Source: Balneolaceae bacterium
GTDB taxonomy: Bacteria > Bacteroidota > Rhodothermia > Balneolales > Balneolaceae
NCBI GenBank assembly: GCA_007118525.1
Contig: SKRK01000095.1
Location: forward strand, 1-10,245
DNA length: 10,245 bases
Direction: 5' to 3'
Position numbers and translations under genes: made by a program. The notes beneath the pieces are model-generated. The model was not told where the DNA came from, did no database searches, and saw nothing but the letters and a program-made list of their open reading frames with translations. Numbering within the stretch: position 1 is the stretch's first letter; each line of letters starts with the position of its first letter. Positions 1 through 8,300 of the stretch are shown piece by piece.

Positions 1-615
1 TATTTGACGGGCGTATCCGCTGAACTCCTGCTGAATGGTTACCGGCATTGCGTCCATAAGGTGTGTGCGCCCTGTTTTTACCACATCTTTAAGTTCATCA
101 CCTTTGGCCAGAATGGTTTTATGCAGGTGCTTCAGGGCCGGAATCAGGTTTTCCTGAACCGAGAGAACTGCTGAAATGCGAATAGCCGTCGGAATCACAT
201 CGTTTGAGCTTTGGCCAAAATTGACGTGATCGTTCGGGTGGATAAATGTATCTGTGCCCTCTTTAAGTTCATTGGCACGCTTGGCGATCACCTCGTTAGC
301 ATTCATGTTGGTAGACGTACCGGAACCGGTTTGAAAGATGTCTAAAACAAAATCCGCGTCGAACTTTCCCTCAATTACTTCATTTGACGCTTTTTGAATG
401 GCATCGGCTATTTTTTTATCGATCAGACCCAACTCTGCGTTCACTTTTGCAGCCGAATACTTCACACGTCCCACAGCCGATATAAACTCCCTGCTAAACC
501 GGATACTACTCACCGGGAAGTTATCGTGTGCACGTTGTGTTTGCGCTCCATAGTAAGCATTAGCAGGCACTTTAACCTCGCCCATAGAGTCCTTTTCAAT
601 TCGATAATCGCTCAT
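1..615 (-). CDS. fumC: Fumarate hydratase, class II (N-terminal part, runs off the left edge)
   Basis: Class II fumarase interconverts fumarate and malate in the TCA cycle as a cytoplasmic homotetramer. The gene starts with ATG at 615-613 and the 205 codons seen are open to base 1; the C-terminal half, including the GSSxMPxKxN signature loop, lies outside the window. Visible family motifs are [16 protein letters not shown] (residues 94-109), [15 protein letters not shown] (126-140, substrate-binding region) and [12 protein letters not shown] (182-193). His185 in GRTH matches the catalytic His of fumarases; aspartase has Gln in this place, which argues against aspartate ammonia-lyase. There is no clear Shine-Dalgarno site, only an A-rich leader. 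It lies 171 bases downstream of the sphingolipid genes on the same strand and probably has its own promoter there; no functional link to them is apparent. Confidence 0.95.
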
Positions 616-786: not shown

Positions 787-1920
787 TTAAAGCTTTTTCG
801 AATACATCCTGTAGACCTTATCCAGCTGGCCACCGATTTTTTCAGCTACGCGGACCATTTGGACATTCTCTTCCAGTATCCAGCCAACTTCGGACGAGTA
901 GAAATCTTTTATCAATCCATTTTCAATGGCTTCTCGGTGCAGAAGTACATCAATACCTTTACCCTGATACTCCGGCAGAACCCCCATAAGTGCGGTACGA
1001 ATTTTATTGATTTTCTTCTTATTCCAGAGAATTTTTAAAATACCGAATGGCAGCAGCCGTCCATTCATATTCCTTAAAATCTGGTTGTAATCGGGAAGGC
1101 CAACCGAGAAACCGACCGGTTTACCGCCTATCTCGGCTATATGAGCAAAATCCGGATCAACAATTGTTTTCAAATCGGCTGCAAGCGAATCAAATTCAGC
1201 TTCAGAAAGAGGTATGTAACCCCAGTTCTTGCTCCATGCAGCATTAAAAATTTTACGGATTATTTTAACCTCTTCTCTAATATTCTTCAGCTCTATTCTC
1301 CTGATGTGGATCTCCGGAAGACGTTTTTTAACAATTTCAACTGCCCGGTTGGCACGGTCTCTGTCCACACTGTCTTGTGTAACCAGATAGGTAAACAGAT
1401 CCATCGCTTTATCGTATCCCACTCCTTTCAGGAGTTTGTCGTAATACTTTTTACTGTACGGCATCATAATACTTGGATACTTTTCAAAACCATCAACAAG
1501 TATTCCGATCTCATCCATCATACTGGGGTTTGCAGGCCCCAAAACGTCTTCCATTCCATTTCGTCTCATCCAGTCTTCGGCAACCTTGAAGAGCAGATCT
1601 GCTGTAGGCTGATGATCAATACACTCAAAAAAACCAAAAAATCCGGTTTTGGTTTTATGATAGTCATTATACCGGTGATCGATGATTGCTGCCAGCCGGC
1701 CGGCCGGCTTATCGTTGTGCTCTGCCAGAAACAGAACTATCTCGGCATTTTCGTAGAATGGGTTTTTCTTTTCGTTGAGCAGTTTTTTCTGCTCAATCAG
1801 CAGCGGCGCCACCCAATAGGTATCTTCTGAATAGTGTGCGTACGGAAAATGTATAAAATCTTTCTTCTCCTGCTTGGTAGAAACAATAGATACAGCGTTG
1901 GTAGGAGGTCTGTTTTCCAC
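787..1920 (-). CDS. bcerS: GNAT-fold N-acyltransferase, probable bacterial ceramide synthase
   Basis: The probable role is N-acylation of a sphingoid base with a fatty acyl thioester, giving (dihydro)ceramide. The 377-residue product starts with GTG at 1920-1918, only 3 bases after the spt stop codon, which suggests coupled expression. The N-terminal half has an aromatic-rich conserved-looking stretch (KNPFYENAEIVLFLAE, 52-67; GFFGFFECID, 93-102) and LGPANPSMMDE (127-137). The C-terminal half has a GNAT core with the acetyl-CoA-type loop VLPEYQGKGID (314-324), where the usual last Gly/Ala of the loop is Asp324. No signal peptide or membrane segment is obvious. A GNAT-like acyltransferase (CC_1154 / CCNA_01212) is the ceramide synthase of Caulobacter; the role here is inferred from the family and from adjacency to spt. 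The alternative is an acyltransferase with another amine substrate. Confidence 0.75.
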   Translation of the reverse strand: MENRPPTNAVSIVSTKQEKKDFIHFPYAHYSEDTYWVAPLLIEQKKLLNEKKNPFYENAEIVLFLAEHNDKPAGRLAAIIDHRYNDYHKTKTGFFGFFECIDHQPTADLLFKVAEDWMRRNGMEDVLGPANPSMMDEIGILVDGFEKYPSIMMPYSKKYYDKLLKGVGYDKAMDLFTYLVTQDSVDRDRANRAVEIVKKRLPEIHIRRIELKNIREEVKIIRKIFNAAWSKNWGYIPLSEAEFDSLAADLKTIVDPDFAHIAEIGGKPVGFSVGLPDYNQILRNMNGRLLPFGILKILWNKKKINKIRTALMGVLPEYQGKGIDVLLHREAIENGLIKDFYSSEVGWILEENVQMVRVAEKIGGQLDKVYRMYSKKL

Positions 1921-1923
1921 AAG

Positions 1924-3171
1924 CTATACTTCTAAATCTATCAATGATTTTCCATTTTTGTCGATAATTCCATGCTTTATACCCACTGTTCTGAACGCAT
2001 CCAAAATTTTATCAAGATGTTCATTTGTGTGGGTGGCCATATAACTGGTTCTCACCAAGGCCTGTCCCTGCGGCACGGCAGGCGGCACCACGGCATTAAC
2101 GTAAACCCCCTCCTCAAACAGGTCTTTCCAAAACTGAAAACATTTCATCATCTCACCTACAACAACCGGAATGATTGGCGTTTGGCTGGACCATACGTTA
2201 AAGCCGAGATCGCGCAAATTTGCACGCATGTAGTTGGAAATCTCCTCAAGGCGTTCCAGTCTCCAAGGTTCGCTTTGCAGAATTTCGAGTGATTTTAACA
2301 CAGTTGCCACATTTGCCGGAGGCATACTTGCACTGAAAATATGAGCGGGCGACTTATGGCGGATATATTCTATAACTGTACGGTCGCCCACCAGGAACCC
2401 TCCGAGTGATGCAAAAGATTTTGAAAATGTACCGCTGATCAGGTCAACATCGTCCATTAAACCAAAAACGGATGCTGAACCTCGCCCTCCGTCACCTATT
2501 ACCCCAACAGCGTGTGCATCATCGAGGTATAAACCTGCACCGTACTCTTTTGCCAAAGCTACCAGTTCAGGTACTTTAGCCAGTGTGCCCGACATTGAAA
2601 ATACACCGTCGCTCACTATAATCTTGCCGGCTCCCGGCTCAGCTTTAGCCAGCAGAGTGCGCAGATGCTCCATATCGTTGTGTCGAAACCTGACCGTTTT
2701 CGCATTTGAAACCTGTGTTCCCACAACAATGCAGGCATGGTTTTCACGATCAGAGAAAATGATATCATTACGGTCAGCTATGGTCTGAATTGACCCTTCG
2801 TTGGTTTGATAGCCGGTGCTGAACAGAACGCAAGACTCCTTCTTCATAAAGACGGCAAGTTTCTCTTCGAGTTCCAGATGGAGATCGAGAGTACCGTTCA
2901 AATATCGAGAACCTGTACAACCGGTACCGTAGGTGGTAATCACATCCTGGGCGGCTTTTATGGTACGAGGATCATTTGTGAGGCCAAGATAATTATTTGA
3001 ACCGGCCATAATTACATCGCGGCCTTCAATTTTCACAGTAGTTCCGTCAGTTGCCTGAAGGGGTTTGAAATAGGGATAGAGCCCTAATTCTTTAATTTCA
3101 TCTGCAATTGTAAAGTCGTATGCTTTTTTAAATACTTTCTGATATGTTGTTTCGGCGTTGGTATCAGCCAT
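1924..3171 (-). CDS. spt: Serine palmitoyltransferase (PLP-dependent alpha-oxoamine synthase)
   Basis: It condenses L-serine with a long-chain acyl thioester to 3-ketosphinganine, CO2 and free thiol carrier, the first committed step of sphingolipid synthesis, in the cytoplasm or at the inner membrane face. The 415-residue length is typical of bacterial soluble SPT. Key PLP-fold residues are visible: His145 (DRENHAC, stacks on PLP), Asp217 and His220 (LDDAH), Lys251 in GTFSKSFASLGG (forms the PLP aldimine), and Arg374 in VRTSYMATHT, matching the carboxylate-binding Arg of Sphingomonas SPT. The stretch GTGCTGSRYLNGTLDLH (82-98) is typical of the alpha-oxoamine synthases and close to SPT. Glycine C-acetyltransferase or BioF are alternatives, but the ceramide-synthase-like neighbour favours SPT. 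Start is ATG at 3171-3169, with no clear Shine-Dalgarno site. A promoter-like element lies just upstream. Confidence 0.88.
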   Translation of the reverse strand: MADTNAETTYQKVFKKAYDFTIADEIKELGLYPYFKPLQATDGTTVKIEGRDVIMAGSNNYLGLTNDPRTIKAAQDVITTYGTGCTGSRYLNGTLDLHLELEEKLAVFMKKESCVLFSTGYQTNEGSIQTIADRNDIIFSDRENHACIVVGTQVSNAKTVRFRHNDMEHLRTLLAKAEPGAGKIIVSDGVFSMSGTLAKVPELVALAKEYGAGLYLDDAHAVGVIGDGGRGSASVFGLMDDVDLISGTFSKSFASLGGFLVGDRTVIEYIRHKSPAHIFSASMPPANVATVLKSLEILQSEPWRLERLEEISNYMRANLRDLGFNVWSSQTPIIPVVVGEMMKCFQFWKDLFEEGVYVNAVVPPAVPQGQALVRTSYMATHTNEHLDKILDAFRTVGIKHGIIDKNGKSLIDLEV

Positions 3172-3200
3172 GACGGGGAGTTACATTTTCATTAATCGGG

Positions 3201-3231
3201 TAAATATACCGAGTATTAAGATTCTATCAAA
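3201..3231 (-). promoter_or_regulatory. Bacteroidota-type promoter candidate for spt
   Basis: On the minus strand, TTTG (3231-3228) is followed after exactly 19 bases by TATATTTA (3208-3201). This fits the Bacteroidota pattern of a -33 TTTG and a -7 TAnnTTTG box, with one mismatch at the last base. The -7 box ends 29 bases before the spt ATG, allowing a short leader. It lies in the 85-base gap between the second glycosyltransferase and spt, so spt and the ceramide synthase gene may be transcribed separately from, or in addition to, the glycosyltransferases. It was found by eye; no transcript data were available. Confidence 0.45.
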
Positions 3232-3256
3232 TTCTGTAAACGTAACTGACGGGTAA

Positions 3257-4366
3257 TTAATTCAGGCTTTTTAAAAAAGCCAGGTATTTATCTACCACAG
3301 CGTCCCAGTTAAACGTTTTTTTTACAAAATCTTCGGCTTTCTTTGAAAGGTTTTTTAATTCGCTATTTAAAACCTGGTCGACCTTTGCAGCGAACATACC
3401 TGCATCTCCTGCAGGTACTCTGTATCCATTTACTCCCTGAACAATTACATCCTTAATGCCTTCCAGGTCGGATGCCACAGCCGGCACTCCGGCACGGTTG
3501 GCTTCCAGCAATACAATTCCAAAACCTTCCATATCCCCCTTTACAGGGATGTTTGGCATTACAAAAAGATCAGCTCCTGCATAAGCAGCATTTAATATCT
3601 CTTCAGGTTGTTTACCCGTAATGATGATCTTTTGTTTCAAAGAAGATGCTTCTCTTGCCAGATTAATTGAATCGTGCTCCGGGCCATCACCAATTATCAT
3701 ATATATAACATCGGATTCAATCTTATCCAATACTTCTTCAATAAACCATTGATGCCCTTTTCGCTTCACCTGCCGGCCAACGGTGAGAAGTAACCTTGCA
3801 GAAGACAGATCCAGATTGAATTTTTTTTCCAGAATACTTCTGGCCTCCTCCTTTTCCGGCAATTCCCTCATTGCGCCGGCGTCAAATCCGTTCGGCAGGG
3901 CAACACCGATGGCCGGTTTCATCCCACGCTTTATGGAAGCCTGCCTGGTGGCTTCAGATACTGAAATAACGCCTTGCAGATTTTTAAATACAGTTGGCAG
4001 ATACCATTGATAAATAAAAAATGGCAGCGTAACATCCTGCCCGTGGTTAATTGTAACATATGGAACTTTTGGCTTTCGGATCATAAATGGAAGTACGCCT
4101 GCCGTAACCATCGATGAGAAAAGCACAACATCCGGGTTGAACCGTTTAACCGCTTTGGGAATTCTCCAGAGCAGTTTAAACAGAAAAAAGAACGTTTTAA
4201 GCCCAATATATCTCCAGGATGTACGTAAAATGATGGTTTCAATCTCTACATCATCCCGTTTTTTCATGGCTTCCACCATCTGAATACTGACGTTTTGCAT
4301 TCCCCCGATACTTTTCAGAGGGGCGTCTTCAGGTGGATGCAAATGTGAAATGTATAAAATCCGCAC
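3257..4366 (-). CDS. GT4-family glycosyltransferase (second of pair)
   Basis: A 369-residue retaining glycosyltransferase of the GT-B fold. The N-terminal acceptor domain opens with MRILYISHLHPPE and a Gly-rich loop at SIGGMQ (19-24). The C-terminal donor domain has TVGRQVKRKGH (195-205, Arg198 and Lys202 probably contacting the nucleotide-sugar phosphates), IIGDGPE (224-230) and the EX7E motif at Glu280-Glu288 (EGFGIVLLE). No transmembrane helix or signal peptide is clear; such enzymes usually act at the cytoplasmic membrane face on lipid acceptors. The start is GTG at 4366-4364, 9 bases after the stop of the preceding glycosyltransferase, so the two are probably co-transcribed. From context the acceptor may be ceramide or a monoglycosylated ceramide; the sugar donor cannot be told from sequence alone, and an exopolysaccharide or glycerolipid role is not excluded. 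Confidence 0.85.
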   Translation of the reverse strand: MRILYISHLHPPEDAPLKSIGGMQNVSIQMVEAMKKRDDVEIETIILRTSWRYIGLKTFFFLFKLLWRIPKAVKRFNPDVVLFSSMVTAGVLPFMIRKPKVPYVTINHGQDVTLPFFIYQWYLPTVFKNLQGVISVSEATRQASIKRGMKPAIGVALPNGFDAGAMRELPEKEEARSILEKKFNLDLSSARLLLTVGRQVKRKGHQWFIEEVLDKIESDVIYMIIGDGPEHDSINLAREASSLKQKIIITGKQPEEILNAAYAGADLFVMPNIPVKGDMEGFGIVLLEANRAGVPAVASDLEGIKDVIVQGVNGYRVPAGDAGMFAAKVDQVLNSELKNLSKKAEDFVKKTFNWDAVVDKYLAFLKSLN

Positions 4367-4375
4367 TTTTTCGAT

Positions 4376-5509
4376 CTAATACTCCAATACCTGTTTATAA
4401 TAACCCAACAAGTTCTCGTTTATATTTTCCCAGCTATAGTTCTTCGCCATTTCGATGGATAAACCGGCCATATTCTCACGTAACTCTGAATCAGTCACCA
4501 ATTTTTCAATATACGTGTAAAAGTCCTCTTTTTTATCAACACTGGCAAGAAATCCATTAGCGTTATGTTCAACCAAAGATTTGCTGCCCACGGCATCGGC
4601 CACTACACAGGGTAAACCGCTGGCCATAGCTTCCAGTGTAACATTGCCAAAGGTCTCCGTATCGGACGGAAAAAAGAAAATATCGCTACTGGCGTACGAT
4701 GTTGCCAGTTCATCGCCTGTTAAAAACCCCGTATAAACGGCCTCCGGAAAATGCTCCCTGAGCTCATCACCTGCGGGCCCGTCGCCCACAACCAGGGCTT
4801 TTACATTCGAATACTTCCGGCGAATTTTTTTTAGAACATCAGCATAAATCAACAGATTCTTCTCCCAAACCAGCCGCGAAACAAACGTCACAACGATATC
4901 ATCTTCGCCAAATCCTCTTTCAGCTCTCCATGAATCACTCCGTTTTGAGGGATTAAACGCCTCATTATCTATTCCCCTGGCCCAGATTTTAAGTTCACTG
5001 TCAATCCCCTTCTCTTCCAGGAATTCTGCCATCGAGGGTGTGGGAATGTAGAGTTGGCTGCAATGGCTGTAAAACCACCCGAGGTATTTCCAAAGCAGGG
5101 GTTCCAATATCGAGAGTTTATAGTACTTGAGATAACTTGCAAAATGTGTGTGATAGGAGGATACAACCGGCTTCTGATTATTTATTGACCATTTAAGAGC
5201 TTTATAACCCAGAATATCGGGTGTTGCTATATGGATCAGATCAGGATTAAACTCTTCCAGCTTTTTTCTCGCCTCTTTTGGAAATGCGGTGCTCACACGA
5301 TATTCAGGCCTGCCGGGAAGGCTTTTGGAAGGCACAACAATCAGTTTTCCGTTATGCTGTAGCGCAGGTTCATCAATAGAGGGGCCAAACACCAGCACCT
5401 CTACACCGTTTTGGAGAAGAAACTTTACCAAACGGTTCAGCGTAAGCGATACACCATCGCGAATATGATTATAATTACCGGTAAATAGGGCTACCCGAAA
5501 CCTGCTCAT
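4376..5509 (-). CDS. GT4-family glycosyltransferase (first of pair), MgtA/SQD2-like
   Basis: A 377-residue GT-B glycosyltransferase resembling the GT4 enzymes that glycosylate membrane lipids (MgtA-like mannosyltransferases, SQD2). Motifs in order: FTGNYNHIRDGVSLTLNRL (9-27, acceptor-side loop), SSYHTHFASYL (117-127, like the His-Thr motif of that group), FVSRLVWEKNL (209-219, Arg212 and Lys217 for the donor phosphates), VGDGPAGDEL (241-250) and EX7E at Glu285-Glu293 within PSDTETFGNVTLEAMASG. No membrane segment is obvious. ATG at 5509-5507 is the first gene of the minus-strand block; its start overlaps by 4 bases the end of a doubtful 61-codon frame. From the neighbouring ceramide genes it is a candidate to add the first sugar to ceramide. 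The link is inferred; the donor is unknown. Confidence 0.85.
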   Translation of the reverse strand: MSRFRVALFTGNYNHIRDGVSLTLNRLVKFLLQNGVEVLVFGPSIDEPALQHNGKLIVVPSKSLPGRPEYRVSTAFPKEARKKLEEFNPDLIHIATPDILGYKALKWSINNQKPVVSSYHTHFASYLKYYKLSILEPLLWKYLGWFYSHCSQLYIPTPSMAEFLEEKGIDSELKIWARGIDNEAFNPSKRSDSWRAERGFGEDDIVVTFVSRLVWEKNLLIYADVLKKIRRKYSNVKALVVGDGPAGDELREHFPEAVYTGFLTGDELATSYASSDIFFFPSDTETFGNVTLEAMASGLPCVVADAVGSKSLVEHNANGFLASVDKKEDFYTYIEKLVTDSELRENMAGLSIEMAKNYSWENINENLLGYYKQVLEY

Positions 5510-5691
5510 ACAGTTTTAATTGCAATTGCCATCTTTGTATCTTCAATGGCTGTCGCTTTTAGTATTAGTGAGATTGTTATGCGAACTGTATTTTGAAACC
5601 GTTCACTTCGAACAGGCACGGAACTCCAAATCTTAACCGCTAATTTTAGTACCGATACAGATTTATTGAAACGGAAGTTACCTGACGTCAT
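5506..5691 (-). CDS. Doubtful small reading frame ahead of the glycosyltransferase
   Basis: A 61-codon frame from ATG at 5691-5689 ends in an ATGA overlap with the start of the downstream glycosyltransferase, a spacing often seen for coupled genes. The product would be basic and rich in Val, Ile, Thr and Ala, with no signal peptide, cysteines or recognisable motif. Against it, the codons (several CTA, ATA and TTA) differ from those of the neighbouring genes, no ribosome binding site is visible, and the stretch fills most of a divergent promoter region. It resembles no family known to me. The overlap may be chance. Confidence 0.2.
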   Translation of the reverse strand: MTSGNFRFNKSVSVLKLAVKIWSSVPVRSERFQNTVRITISLILKATAIEDTKMAIAIKTV

Positions 5692-5753
5692 GATACTTAA
5701 CTGAACAGCCTCTGTTTTTCAGAAATTTTCAACGGGTTGAATATACAAATTAA
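5510..5753. promoter_or_regulatory. Divergent intergenic region between the glycosyltransferase and ketosphinganine reductase genes
   Basis: This 244-base gap must hold the start signals for both the minus-strand glycosyltransferase block and the plus-strand reductase block, so it is the likely control point of the cluster. Perfect short palindromes are seen: AATTGCAATT (5518-5527), overlapping GCAATTGC (5522-5529), and TGACGTCA (5683-5690). An imperfect inverted repeat with CTGA/TCAG ends spans 5701-5722. No convincing TTTG / TAnnTTTG pair was found in either direction. Palindromes this short can arise by chance. Confidence 0.45.
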
Positions 5754-6728
5754 ATGAACGCATTTGTTACCGGTGCAACAGGTTTTATCGGAAGCCATCT
5801 TGTCGACAGTCTTATTGAGCTCCCAAATTACGAACAGATTAAATGCCTGGTACGAAGTAACGAGAAGTGGTTAGAAGGCAAATCGTATCAAAAAGTTTCC
5901 GGAGATCTTCACTCCTTTCGTGTTCTGGGTGATGCCCTCGAAGATACGGATATTGTTTTCCATCTTGCTGCAGTGGTAAAGGCGCCAAGCCAAAAAGAGT
6001 ATGACTACGCAAATGTAGAGGCTACAGAGAATTTACTGAGGCTGGCTCATAAAAAAGGTGTAAAAAAGATGGTGATTCTCTCATCGCTGGCCGCAGCCGG
6101 ACCGAGCCGGGGCGAACCGCTTACGGAACAGAATTCCCTGAATCCGGTTAGCAAGTATGGAGTGTCCAAAAAACGGATGGAAGATATGATTCACGCCGTG
6201 GCCGATCCCAGAATGTCGATTACGATTTTGCGCCCGCCAGCCGTATATGGCCCCAGGGAAGATCAGATCTTTACCCTCTTTAAAATGATGAAGTACGGCA
6301 TTGCCCCCATTGTTGGCGACGGCAATCACCCCGAACTCTCCATGCTTTACGTTAAAGATTTAATTCAGGGTATATTAAAAGCTGCCCAACAAACAAAACC
6401 GGGCGTCCATACCTACTTTATAACGGGTAAGGAGATTGCCAACTGGAATCAAATCCGCGATATTGTATCAACGGTATTAGGAAGAAACAGCTTAACTGTG
6501 CGCCTGAAGCCAAAATGGGTAAAAAATATTGCCGGTACAATTGAAACAACTGCGTCATTTTTTGGTACATATCCCGTTATAAACAAGGAAAAAGCGAACG
6601 AAATGATACTTGAGTGGACTTGTTCCGGTGAGAAAGCCATGAAGGAGCTCAATTACAAACCCCAATACACACTGGAAGAAGGAATCTCGCGCACACTGAG
6701 ATGGTATAAAACACATGGATGGTTATAA
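5754..6728 (+). CDS. cerR: Extended SDR oxidoreductase, probable 3-ketosphinganine reductase (CerR-type)
   Basis: The likely role is reduction of 3-ketosphinganine, the SPT product, to sphinganine, or the same reaction on the N-acylated ketone, using NAD(P)H in the cytoplasm. The 324-residue protein is an extended short-chain dehydrogenase annotated in the epimerase/dehydratase family: Rossmann motif TGATGFIG (6-13), LAA (71-73), catalytic Ser in LSSLAAAGPS (109-118), active-site Tyr135-Lys139 (YGVSK), and RPPAVYGPR (160-168). Bacteria lack the eukaryotic-type KDSR and use an SDR of this epimerase-like type (CerR in Caulobacter, homologues in Bacteroides). Divergent placement opposite the glycosyltransferase-spt-ceramide synthase block supports this role. 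ATG at 5754 directly follows an A/T-rich leader with no Shine-Dalgarno site. The alternative is a nucleotide-sugar or sterol-type SDR; the SDR class is certain, the substrate is inferred. Confidence 0.75.
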   Translation: MNAFVTGATGFIGSHLVDSLIELPNYEQIKCLVRSNEKWLEGKSYQKVSGDLHSFRVLGDALEDTDIVFHLAAVVKAPSQKEYDYANVEATENLLRLAHKKGVKKMVILSSLAAAGPSRGEPLTEQNSLNPVSKYGVSKKRMEDMIHAVADPRMSITILRPPAVYGPREDQIFTLFKMMKYGIAPIVGDGNHPELSMLYVKDLIQGILKAAQQTKPGVHTYFITGKEIANWNQIRDIVSTVLGRNSLTVRLKPKWVKNIAGTIETTASFFGTYPVINKEKANEMILEWTCSGEKAMKELNYKPQYTLEEGISRTLRWYKTHGWL

Positions 6729-6731
6729 CCT

Positions 6732-8300
6732 ATGAATAGAACTCTTTTACTGCCGGTATTTACTACCCTTATATTTCTGATATCACTCTCAACCGCATTT
6801 GCACAGTCACAGTGGAGCCAGGATTTCCGGAAACAGATGGAGATCCCGAACATTATCAATATTGAGAGTTCAGATTCTCATTTCTATGTGCTCTCTGAAA
6901 GTGAAGGGCTTGTCGTGTTCAGGGCGCACCCCGACTCACTGCAATGGCTCTATACTTCTACGGGCATGCAGCAGCGCGGCAATATTCTTCAAAGCGATAT
7001 CCGGTTTGCCTATCTCTATGGAAATAACCGGAGGCTTACCGTTATTGAACCCACTTCGGTTCTGGGTGTCTATTCGTCAACCGTTTTACCCCAGCAGCCA
7101 AGGGCAACCATGAGGGTAGGCAACAATCTCTATATAGCTCTTGGCAGCGGCGGACTCGGCAAATTAAGCCTGGAAAGCCCTGAGAGCGTAGACTCTGACA
7201 TCACATATATCGACCGCGACAGGTTCAGAAACCGAACGGTAAACGATCTTACCACCGATCGCAACCAGATTCTCTATGTGCTCAGTGAAAACAACTACAT
7301 TGACATCTACTCCATCCGTCCGGAGGATGAACAAGCCGTGGTTGAACATGAAGAACGTGTTCAGATTGACAGAACTACGCAACGAATATTTCTTACTCAA
7401 AACGAACTGATCGGGTCGAGCCGCGACGGAACCATTTTTCTGATTAATTCGGATGGCAGGACCCGAACCATAGCCAATGTTGAGAATCCTGTTAACAAAT
7501 TAAGGATCTGGAATGACCAGCTTGTGGTGCATACCGAGAATAAAAATCTCTGGATTGGCCCTTTTCAGGAATCATTGGTGAGATGGAAATCGAACGAACG
7601 TGCAGGCAACTATTTTACAGTTACCGAAAATCAGCTCTGGATTTCCGAGTTTAACAATCTCTCCCCTGTGGTTAAACGAGAAGCCTCTGCAGAAAGAGAA
7701 GCAGCAGGCAGAGGAGACGGCACACTTCGGCTAAAAGAGATCAGCGATGTCATTATTCCGTTTCCGCGGCCTTTAATTCTGCCCATTGAACTTGAGCATA
7801 GTGTTGACGCATCGGTCTCATTCAGCTATGAAGCGCCATTTAATAATGCACGCATTCGCGGAAATTCATTTTACTGGCAGCCATCAGCTACGCAAACCGG
7901 CCGTCACAATGTTGAAATAATCGCCACCAGCGACGATGGACAAACCCACAGCCGTCAGTTTAATATTGATGTAAGGCCTTTCAATGCGCCTCCGCGGTTC
8001 ACCCCTTCGCGACCCGTAACTATACCTATTGGAGAAACCTTTCAGCTAGATATAAAAGCGGTGGATCCTGATGGGAAAAACAAGGATCTGATCCGGTACC
8101 TGGGCGTGGATATGCCCGACGGTGCGCGGCTGAATGAGAAAACCGGCAGGTTTACCTGGAACCCAAACATCCGCCAGGTGGGTACGCACAGATTCCAGGT
8201 TGTGGCAACGGATCAATATGGGGCAGCCGCATCTCAGAATTTTGAGATCACGGTAGTTGAGCTGGCGGAAGAGGCCGAAATCGAACAGGAAGAGTTTTAG
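6732..8300 (+). CDS. Exported protein: beta-propeller-like N-terminal region and two Ig-like (He_PIG-type) domains
   Basis: The 522-residue product starts 3 bases after the reductase stop codon. Residues 1-24 form a signal peptide with a hydrophobic core and a probable cut after AFA24. Residues about 27-312 show recurring short strands (YVLSESEGLVVF, LYIALGSGGLGKL, ILYVLSENNYIDIYSI, LIGSSRDGTIFLI) in the manner of a beta-propeller, without a named repeat family that I can assign. A charged linker (about 313-330) precedes two cadherin/Ig-like domains, about 335-415 and 418-505. Their endings, such as GRFTWNPNIRQVGTHRFQV, with TDQYG after them, fit the putative-Ig (He_PIG) pattern. The last residues are acidic (EEAEIEQEEF). 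No lipobox or C-terminal sorting domain is seen, so a periplasmic or secreted place is likely. No enzymatic residues are recognised; the function is unknown. Confidence 0.8.
   Translation: MNRTLLLPVFTTLIFLISLSTAFAQSQWSQDFRKQMEIPNIINIESSDSHFYVLSESEGLVVFRAHPDSLQWLYTSTGMQQRGNILQSDIRFAYLYGNNRRLTVIEPTSVLGVYSSTVLPQQPRATMRVGNNLYIALGSGGLGKLSLESPESVDSDITYIDRDRFRNRTVNDLTTDRNQILYVLSENNYIDIYSIRPEDEQAVVEHEERVQIDRTTQRIFLTQNELIGSSRDGTIFLINSDGRTRTIANVENPVNKLRIWNDQLVVHTENKNLWIGPFQESLVRWKSNERAGNYFTVTENQLWISEFNNLSPVVKREASAEREAAGRGDGTLRLKEISDVIIPFPRPLILPIELEHSVDASVSFSYEAPFNNARIRGNSFYWQPSATQTGRHNVEIIATSDDGQTHSRQFNIDVRPFNAPPRFTPSRPVTIPIGETFQLDIKAVDPDGKNKDLIRYLGVDMPDGARLNEKTGRFTWNPNIRQVGTHRFQVVATDQYGAAASQNFEITVVELAEEAEIEQEEF
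8287..8294 (+). promoter_or_regulatory. Shine-Dalgarno site deciding the mutY start
   Basis: AGGAAGAG lies within the last codons of the preceding gene and 7 bases before GTG at 8302. It is the clearest ribosome binding site in the window and supports the GTG start over the in-frame ATG at 8257, which would overlap the upstream gene by 44 bases and add 15 basic residues with no family counterpart. Confidence 0.65.

Follow-up and report, generated by a model that had tools for sequence, protein, structure and literature searches.

A compact five-gene locus at positions 787 to 6,728 of a 10,245-nucleotide stretch from a Balneolaceae bacterium (contig SKRK01000095.1; the whole stretch is hereafter called the window) was analysed. 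Our analysis suggests that this locus is a complete ceramide-backbone module together with a dedicated lipid-glycosylation pair, a reading to which we give a probability of roughly 0.6. It is built on homology, a residue typical of serine palmitoyltransferase (SPT), gene order, co-occurrence and gene fusions, all of which are observed. What sets this locus apart is the order-specific pair of GT4 glycosyltransferases (GTs) inside the locus, for which a glycosylated ceramide is a plausible product; the three-gene core is ordinary. The features of the locus are as follows.

787-1920, minus strand: GNAT N-acyltransferase of the CerS/YghO family, candidate ceramide synthase (PF00583, weak, 26.5 bits)
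1924-3171, minus strand: serine palmitoyltransferase-type alpha-oxoamine synthase, SPT (PF00155)
3257-4366, minus strand: GTb, GT4 glycosyltransferase, putatively adding the second sugar (PF00534/PF13439)
4376-5509, minus strand: GTa, GT4 glycosyltransferase, putatively adding the first sugar to the lipid (PF00534/PF13439)
5510-5753, no strand: divergent intergenic region of 244 bases, presumed driver of both arms (from coordinates)
5754-6728, plus strand: extended SDR, candidate CerR-type keto-ceramide reductase (PF01370)

The following scheme is our inference as regards the substrates, the sequence of reactions, the sugar acceptor, the succession of the two GTs and the transfer of sugars. 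The SPT would form 3-ketosphinganine from L-serine and a fatty acyl thioester. The GNAT enzyme, probably encoded in the same operon 3 bases downstream, would N-acylate this product, and the SDR of the divergent arm would yield dihydroceramide by reducing the 3-keto group. Sugar transfer may follow, first by GTa and then, in loci that have it, by GTb, so that a ceramide with one or two sugars (mono- or diglycosyl) would be made for the envelope.

The gene positions, gene classes and gaps of 3 bases (SPT/GNAT), 9 bases (GTa/GTb) and 244 bases that an earlier reading of the sequence alone had given agree with the coordinates, and Pfam supports each class; the SPT is separated from the next GT4 gene by 85 bases. 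All 20 loci fetched around SPT within the order, from five families, show the arrangement GNAT-SPT-(GTb)-GTa<>SDR with the same orientations, which is more than chance would give. The same sequence-only reading had reported neither an acyl carrier protein nor an acyl-ACP synthetase of the proteobacterial type in the window, and a Pfam scan of the nine window proteins likewise found no acyl carrier or AMP-binding domain. With E. coli AasR as query, each of the five genomes searched, the window's own included, gave only matches that were partial and weak, the best of them at 59 bits.

The probable ceramide core

Among solved enzymes, the window SPT is nearest to another Bacteroidota enzyme, the SPT of S. 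multivorum (424 bits), and matched cysteate-C-fatty acyltransferase (CFAT) with 232 and 221 bits. Identity to the SPT of Bacteroides finegoldii is about 45%, and to the SPTs of E. coli and Sphingomonas 37-39%. Seven residues (N59, H145, D217, H220, K251, R374 and A281; K251 is the lysine that binds pyridoxal phosphate, PLP) are invariant across 18 aligned SPTs of the order. N59, H145, H220, K251 and R374 are shared with the aligned references, with tyrosine at position 59 of the Sphingomonas SPT as the sole exception. Position 281 is diagnostic: lysine is reported as the mark of cysteate enzymes and alanine of SPT (PMC9304779; here and below, papers are cited for those parts of them that were accessible). 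Alanine was found in the window SPT and in five of five reference SPTs, lysine in CFAT-like paralogues, asparagine in two Kbl enzymes and threonine in one BioF-like enzyme. A quick tree of 64 rows, built without bootstrap and with long branches flagged, placed the window SPT apart from the CFAT group (support 100) and from Kbl/BioF (90).

These results bear on two other identities of the PLP enzyme. If it were a cysteate-C-fatty acyltransferase (SulA/CapB), the locus would lead to glycosylated sulfonolipids; CFAT and SPT belong to one enzyme superfamily and sulfonolipids are known from Bacteroidota (PMC10191378), yet alanine replaces lysine at position 281, the match to SPT far exceeds the 221-232 bits to CFAT, and relatives of the window hold a separate CFAT-type enzyme (one with 467 bits to solved CFAT, lysine in six of six aligned). 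On the residue, the structure-match scores and the tree this identity was rejected as very improbable. The enzyme could also be a glycine C-acetyltransferase (Kbl) or BioF with unrelated neighbours, the outcome that the sequence-only reading had named as damaging to it. The fold is common to both, and NCBIfam Kbl and BioF models match at up to 388 bits, all under their cut-offs; against this, a true Kbl with 702 bits, above its cut-off, is encoded separately in relatives, as is a BioF-like enzyme with 416 bits at a cut-off of 426, and the window enzyme differs from both types at residue 281 and in the tree. The damaging outcome did not arise in the phylogeny, and a Kbl/BioF identity has a negligible probability.

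Two observations weigh against a simple SPT assignment. The four-row group of the S. multivorum SPT meets the 50-row group of the window at a fork that the tree does not resolve, and NF047600, the equivalog model of CFB-type SPT, was the best of 12 families matched with 497.9 bits at a curated cut-off of 640. The window enzyme is called SPT-type here and does not receive the NF047600 label, since its score lies below that cut-off. Overall, the PLP enzyme is closest to SPTs, with serine as the predicted substrate. In one further locus (L043, G028:C100) the SPT gene carries an in-frame stop and the locus is otherwise normal, which reflects either assembly error or decay.

The GNAT protein is a full-length member of the CerS/YghO family and is, by its homology, a candidate ceramide synthase. 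It shares 35% identity with E. coli YghO over 373 amino acids (E 2e-73) and 35% with the Sphingomonas relative over 383 columns. A profile of 18 order members scored relatives from Rubrobacter (367 bits), Aureispira (344), E. coli (YghO, 321) and Sphingomonas (306), and a plasmid collection also held full-length relatives, E. coli YghO included; an NCBIfam scan of the window GNAT matched no family. Among named sequences, its nearest GNAT relatives come from Rhodohalobacter and Balneolaceae, which agrees with the origin of the window. In the opened records of E. coli, Rubrobacter, Sphingomonas and Aureispira, spt adjoins a GNAT relative or shares its locus. In E. coli BL21, ECD_02850 is presumed to be an N-acyltransferase and ECD_02852 a reductase (PMC9386255); ECD_02850 is taken to be yghO because the five-gene order matches that of the E. 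coli record carrying yghO. On a plasmid of the actinobacterium Rubrobacter radiotolerans (L130:5923-9290, plus strand), SPT, GNAT and SDR genes stand in a row and are followed by a gene of the LTA-synthase family.

For the SDR, a profile search of a complete E. coli chromosome gave its best match (133 bits) between the spt and yghO matches. The sequence of the window SDR starts directly at the Rossmann motif and no signal peptide was seen by eye; the CerR of Caulobacter is reported to be periplasmic (PMC11087976). The assignment as CerR type is weakened in two ways. The margin in the one E. coli chromosome is small (133 bits versus 114 for the next match), and in the SDR tree, where the window enzyme falls with reductases of other SPT-bearing genomes, the branch that sets this group apart from the outgroup, three other E. 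coli SDRs, is weak (73% support). This weak branch bears on the second refuting phylogeny named in the sequence-only reading, an SDR that groups with nucleotide-sugar epimerases.

Co-occurrence was analysed in 296 genomes of the phylum (42 of the order, 32 from the rest of the class and 222 from the rest of the phylum), which as related genomes are not independent, a limit that holds for every co-occurrence count given here and for which p-values were given no weight. Matches were classed at E 1e-100 for SPT and GNAT and 1e-43 for SDR, thresholds chosen after the tables were seen. SPT and GNAT were both present in 219 genomes, both absent in 68 and discordant in nine, so that they agree in 287 of 296. 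Of the 225 SPT-positive genomes 220 have an SDR match, and of the 71 SPT-negative ones none has (agreement 291/296). The SDR E-values have no clean gap, the best SPT-negative genome standing at 9.5e-42 and the weakest counted positive at 3.7e-44, and the 11 genomes without an SDR match are inferred as those absent from the match rows. Six families mix SPT-positive and SPT-negative members, and in four of them (f19, f20, f22 and f45) SPT and GNAT agreed in 23 of 24 genomes. The other two run against the association: in f24 and f37 together GNAT was absent in only one of four SPT-negative genomes (G336, and not G121, G132 or G332), and two SPT-positive genomes of f24 (G080 and G262) have no GNAT. 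G335, counted as discordant, has a GNAT gene split over two frames beside SPT (G335:C1:3667665-3668779; assembly error or decay). Family scans, the diagnostic residue, co-occurrence and synteny all uphold the SPT/CerS/CerR trio of the sequence-only reading, and on these sequence comparisons it is very probable that the three types of enzyme form a ceramide core together.

The same cannot be said of the compactness of this core, which that reading had regarded as unusual. According to the literature, Bacteroidota that produce sphingolipids do not have the three genes near one another (PMC11334938), and bacterial cerS is always in another operon than spt (PMC11324152). In B. finegoldii the GNAT gene is on another record than SPT, both records carrying housekeeping genes, whereas in the window 3 bases separate the two. 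Among 20 loci from outside the class (hand-picked, mostly with high SPT scores), 14 had GNAT-SPT<>SDR side by side without GTs, four had SPT<>SDR with GNAT not adjacent, and two had SPT-GNAT without SDR, one of them fused; an Aureispira plasmid also carries GNAT-SPT<>SDR without GTs. Among 80 named loci of a genome collection, retrieved with a query that held SPT and GNAT so that adjacency is favoured, GNAT was a separate open reading frame downstream of SPT in 58, was fused to it in two and was missing from the stretch in 20. The 60 loci with both genes span 15 phylum labels, of which some are unnamed, and SDR lies within the stretch in 52 of the 80. Neither published statement on gene separation holds generally. 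The core locus is well supported and ordinary in kind; the compact three-gene form recurs in other Bacteroidota and in other phyla, and its novelty was dropped after these comparisons.

The backbone enzymes belong to the families of Caulobacter crescentus spt, cerS (CC_1154) and cerR (CC_1164) (PMC11324152), as judged through the E. coli and Sphingomonas relatives. The window differs from Caulobacter in having no acpR or aasR, in the cerS-like gene 3 bases after spt and in the GT pair inside the locus. The spt loci of E. coli and Sphingomonas (acpR, aasR, epi, yghO) have GNAT and reductase families as in the window; in contrast, their SPTs belong to another subgroup and their loci include an acyl carrier gene, with an acyl-AMP ligase gene in addition in E. 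coli.

The glycosyltransferase pair

A GT4 gene lies between SPT and SDR in all 20 loci of the order (both GTs in 16, GTa alone in three, GTa with another GT4 in one), and the GT4 pair inside the locus is a real, conserved variant of this order. At E <= 1e-40, GTb was found in 36 of 42 genomes of the order, in 30 of 32 from the rest of the class and in one of 222 from the rest of the phylum, and is thus nearly confined to the class. GTa (E <= 1e-50) occurs in 74 of 74 class genomes and in 81 of 222 from the rest of the phylum. An EX7E motif is invariant in both, as E280-X7-E288 across 15 aligned GTb members and E285-X7-E293 across 19 GTa members. The best NCBIfam matches of GTa are lipid GTs, far under cut-off (NF053787, 146 of 480 bits; NF049988, 96 of 400 bits), and searches of solved structures (PDB) with GTa and GTb profiles returned only distant GT4s. 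GTa/GTb were present in four of the 80 named loci, all from Balneolota, and the contig of a fifth Balneolota locus ends before that place. Among known systems, sgt1-sgt2 of Caulobacter are likewise two GT4 genes, whose products act in sequence on ceramide (PMC6445935). The alpha-galactosylceramide synthase BF9343_3149 of Bacteroides fragilis is also a GT4, as compared by description only; it has DX7E (PMC9692976), whereas GTa and GTb have EX7E.

The conserved place in the locus, the lipid-GT models and the Caulobacter precedent make ceramide the likeliest acceptor, and on balance it is probable, from sequence comparison, that at least one of the two GTs acts on it. The constancy of GTa and the changeable nature of GTb fit the first and second sugar, respectively. 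In favour we also count that the pair forms a unit of its own in sister families; near it, some loci have a cluster of which one member was scanned and proved to be MMPL.

Several observations count against this role. GTb is missing from three of the 20 order loci and replaced in one. In the rest of the class, 28 of 32 genomes have GTa next to GTb, yet on another contig than SPT or at least tens of kb from it, and seven of the 81 genomes matched by GTa outside the class have no SPT, which speaks against a strict tie. Comparison of gene neighbourhoods gave a divided answer to the association proposed in the sequence-only reading: a GT4 gene is kept at SPT throughout the order (20/20), and the pair stands apart from SPT in sister families. 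The view that GTa/GTb are tied to sphingolipid genes everywhere was dropped. The simplest explanation is an older pair that became part of the cluster in the ancestor of the order.

Five of 16 SPT loci from other Rhodothermia have another kind of GT beside SPT (PF13528, from the scan of one representative):

L094:10745-11878, minus strand: PF13528-type GT beside SPT, with the same cluster in L089, L090, L103 and L104

In a rival explanation the core is real, the substrate of GTa and GTb is diacylglycerol (or another lipid or envelope glycan), and the pair came to lie beside spt by relocation alone in the order's ancestor. NCBIfam places GTa nearest to enzymes that glycosylate diacylglycerol and phosphatidylglycerol, though under cut-off in every case, and both the independence of the pair elsewhere in the class and the GTa relatives in seven genomes without SPT agree with such a role. 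This explanation has an appreciable but minor probability. A GT4 gene within the SPT<>SDR interval and on the SPT strand in 20 of 20 loci and five families argues against it, because a GT4 between the genes of one pathway would hardly be kept there unless it shared their role; the PF13528 GT beside SPT looks as if it had been separately recruited for the same lipid.

Fusion chains and the order of the steps

Three genomes from two families, whose genes were read directly, encode a single protein of 795-830 residues that joins SPT and GNAT:

L184:2203-4590, minus strand: SPT-GNAT fusion
L185:2851-5313, plus strand: SPT-GNAT fusion; the genome also has a separate GNAT
L186:3091-5583, plus strand: SPT-GNAT fusion

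Among the best 120 of 932 database relatives of one fusion, 109 hold more than 85% of both models, and all 109 have the order SPT-GNAT, the PLP lysine and Ala281; the source names among these 120 include Kapabacteria, Ignavibacteriae, Chlorobi and FCPU426. The search admits proteins of 0.55-1.75 times the length of the 820-residue query, and as this limit mostly excludes single-domain SPTs, the counts give no frequency of fusion. A literature search for SPT-GNAT fusion enzymes, with thin coverage of subscription journals, found nothing on point.

Such fusions favour N-acylation directly after condensation and are the strongest hint for acylation before reduction, an order that was also proposed for Caulobacter (PMC11087976) and that we regard as reasonably likely for the window from this sequence evidence. 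A fusion indicates coupling and not chemistry. On the other side stands the 3-ketosphinganine reductase described for Bacteroides (PMC9278070), by which reduction may come first elsewhere in the phylum. If a purified fusion enzyme formed keto-ceramide from serine and an acyl donor alone, this would bear on the disputed question of acylation before reduction.

Flanking genes, a possible sulfonolipid branch and implications

The remaining genes of the window are as follows.

1-615, minus strand: start of fumC (window gene call)
6732-8300, plus strand: protein that looks secreted by eye and has an Ig-like domain at its C-terminal end, PF05345 (Pfam scan)
Rest of the plus-strand genes of the window: mutY and a DUF2400 gene (Pfam/gene calls)

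The Ig-domain gene is the next homologue of a window gene after SDR in all 20 order loci, where other genes may intervene. Its product has a weak PorZ-like match (NF052228, 26 of 260 bits) and, in a search of solved structures (PDB), no match better than E 0.5. The 244-base divergent region has a G+C content of 36%; the Bacteroidota promoter motif TAnnTTTG was not found on either strand of it.

Genomes of Balneolaceae carry a second alpha-oxoamine synthase of the CFAT/SulA type, to which belong the enzyme with 467 bits to solved CFAT and the six aligned sequences with Lys281 mentioned above. By profile it was found in 35 of 36 sampled members of the family, being absent only in the window's own genome (81% complete); G021, near-identical to that genome, has a CFAT-type gene by score and span. 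It was absent by profile in the six sampled members of the other families of the order. The SPT and CFAT types occur together in 45 of 296 genomes of the phylum (by profile). In three of three CFAT-positive genomes from the rest of the class, CFAT is part of a single chain of 1108-1143 residues; the two that were scanned consist of AMP-ligase, acyl carrier protein and CFAT, which bears on the supply of acyl chains.

L150:5760-6992, minus strand: CFAT-type synthase of Balneolaceae; likewise L151:5680-6909 (minus), L154:5795-7033 (plus) and their relatives
L293:2472-5852, plus strand: CFAT as C-terminal part of a longer chain (domain-scanned)
L294:4571-7897, minus strand: the same (domain-scanned)
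L295:2145-5576, plus strand: the same

Five of 20 loci that were fetched, each from the same family (L279, L282, L287, L291 and L292), have a low-scoring GNAT paralogue beside the CFAT gene in tail-to-tail orientation; two of the 20 were chosen knowingly, and the count without them is three of 18. A GNAT match occurs in 59 of 62 CFAT-positive, SPT-negative genomes, and since Bacteroides GNAT scores alike this number is not decisive. The paralogue is a weak lead as a candidate sulfonolipid N-acyltransferase.

It has been suggested that sphingolipids and sulfonolipids may be mutually exclusive (PMC10191378). The presence of both SPT and CFAT types in 35 of 36 genomes of the family argues against mutual exclusivity of the two lipid classes. 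In its fullest form our proposal is a previously undescribed diglycosyl ceramide of Balneolota made by the five-enzyme locus through a keto-ceramide intermediate, condensation being coupled to N-acylation by the joint production of SPT and CerS (in other lineages as one fused enzyme), with a sulfonolipid branch beside it in Balneolaceae and both lipid classes in one cell; this combination, drawn from genes, is tentative and somewhat short of even odds. A literature search for sphingolipids of Balneolota or Rhodothermota, or for lipid data on the source organism or its order, found nothing on point in a coverage thin in subscription journals, which also weighs against the proposal.

Should ceramide be the acceptor of the GT pair, an entire order would possess a dedicated pathway to glycosphingolipids, gathered in a single block that lends itself to expression and assay. 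With SPT and CFAT types in the same Balneolaceae genomes, the apparent exclusion of the two lipid classes (PMC10191378) would become directly testable in this family.

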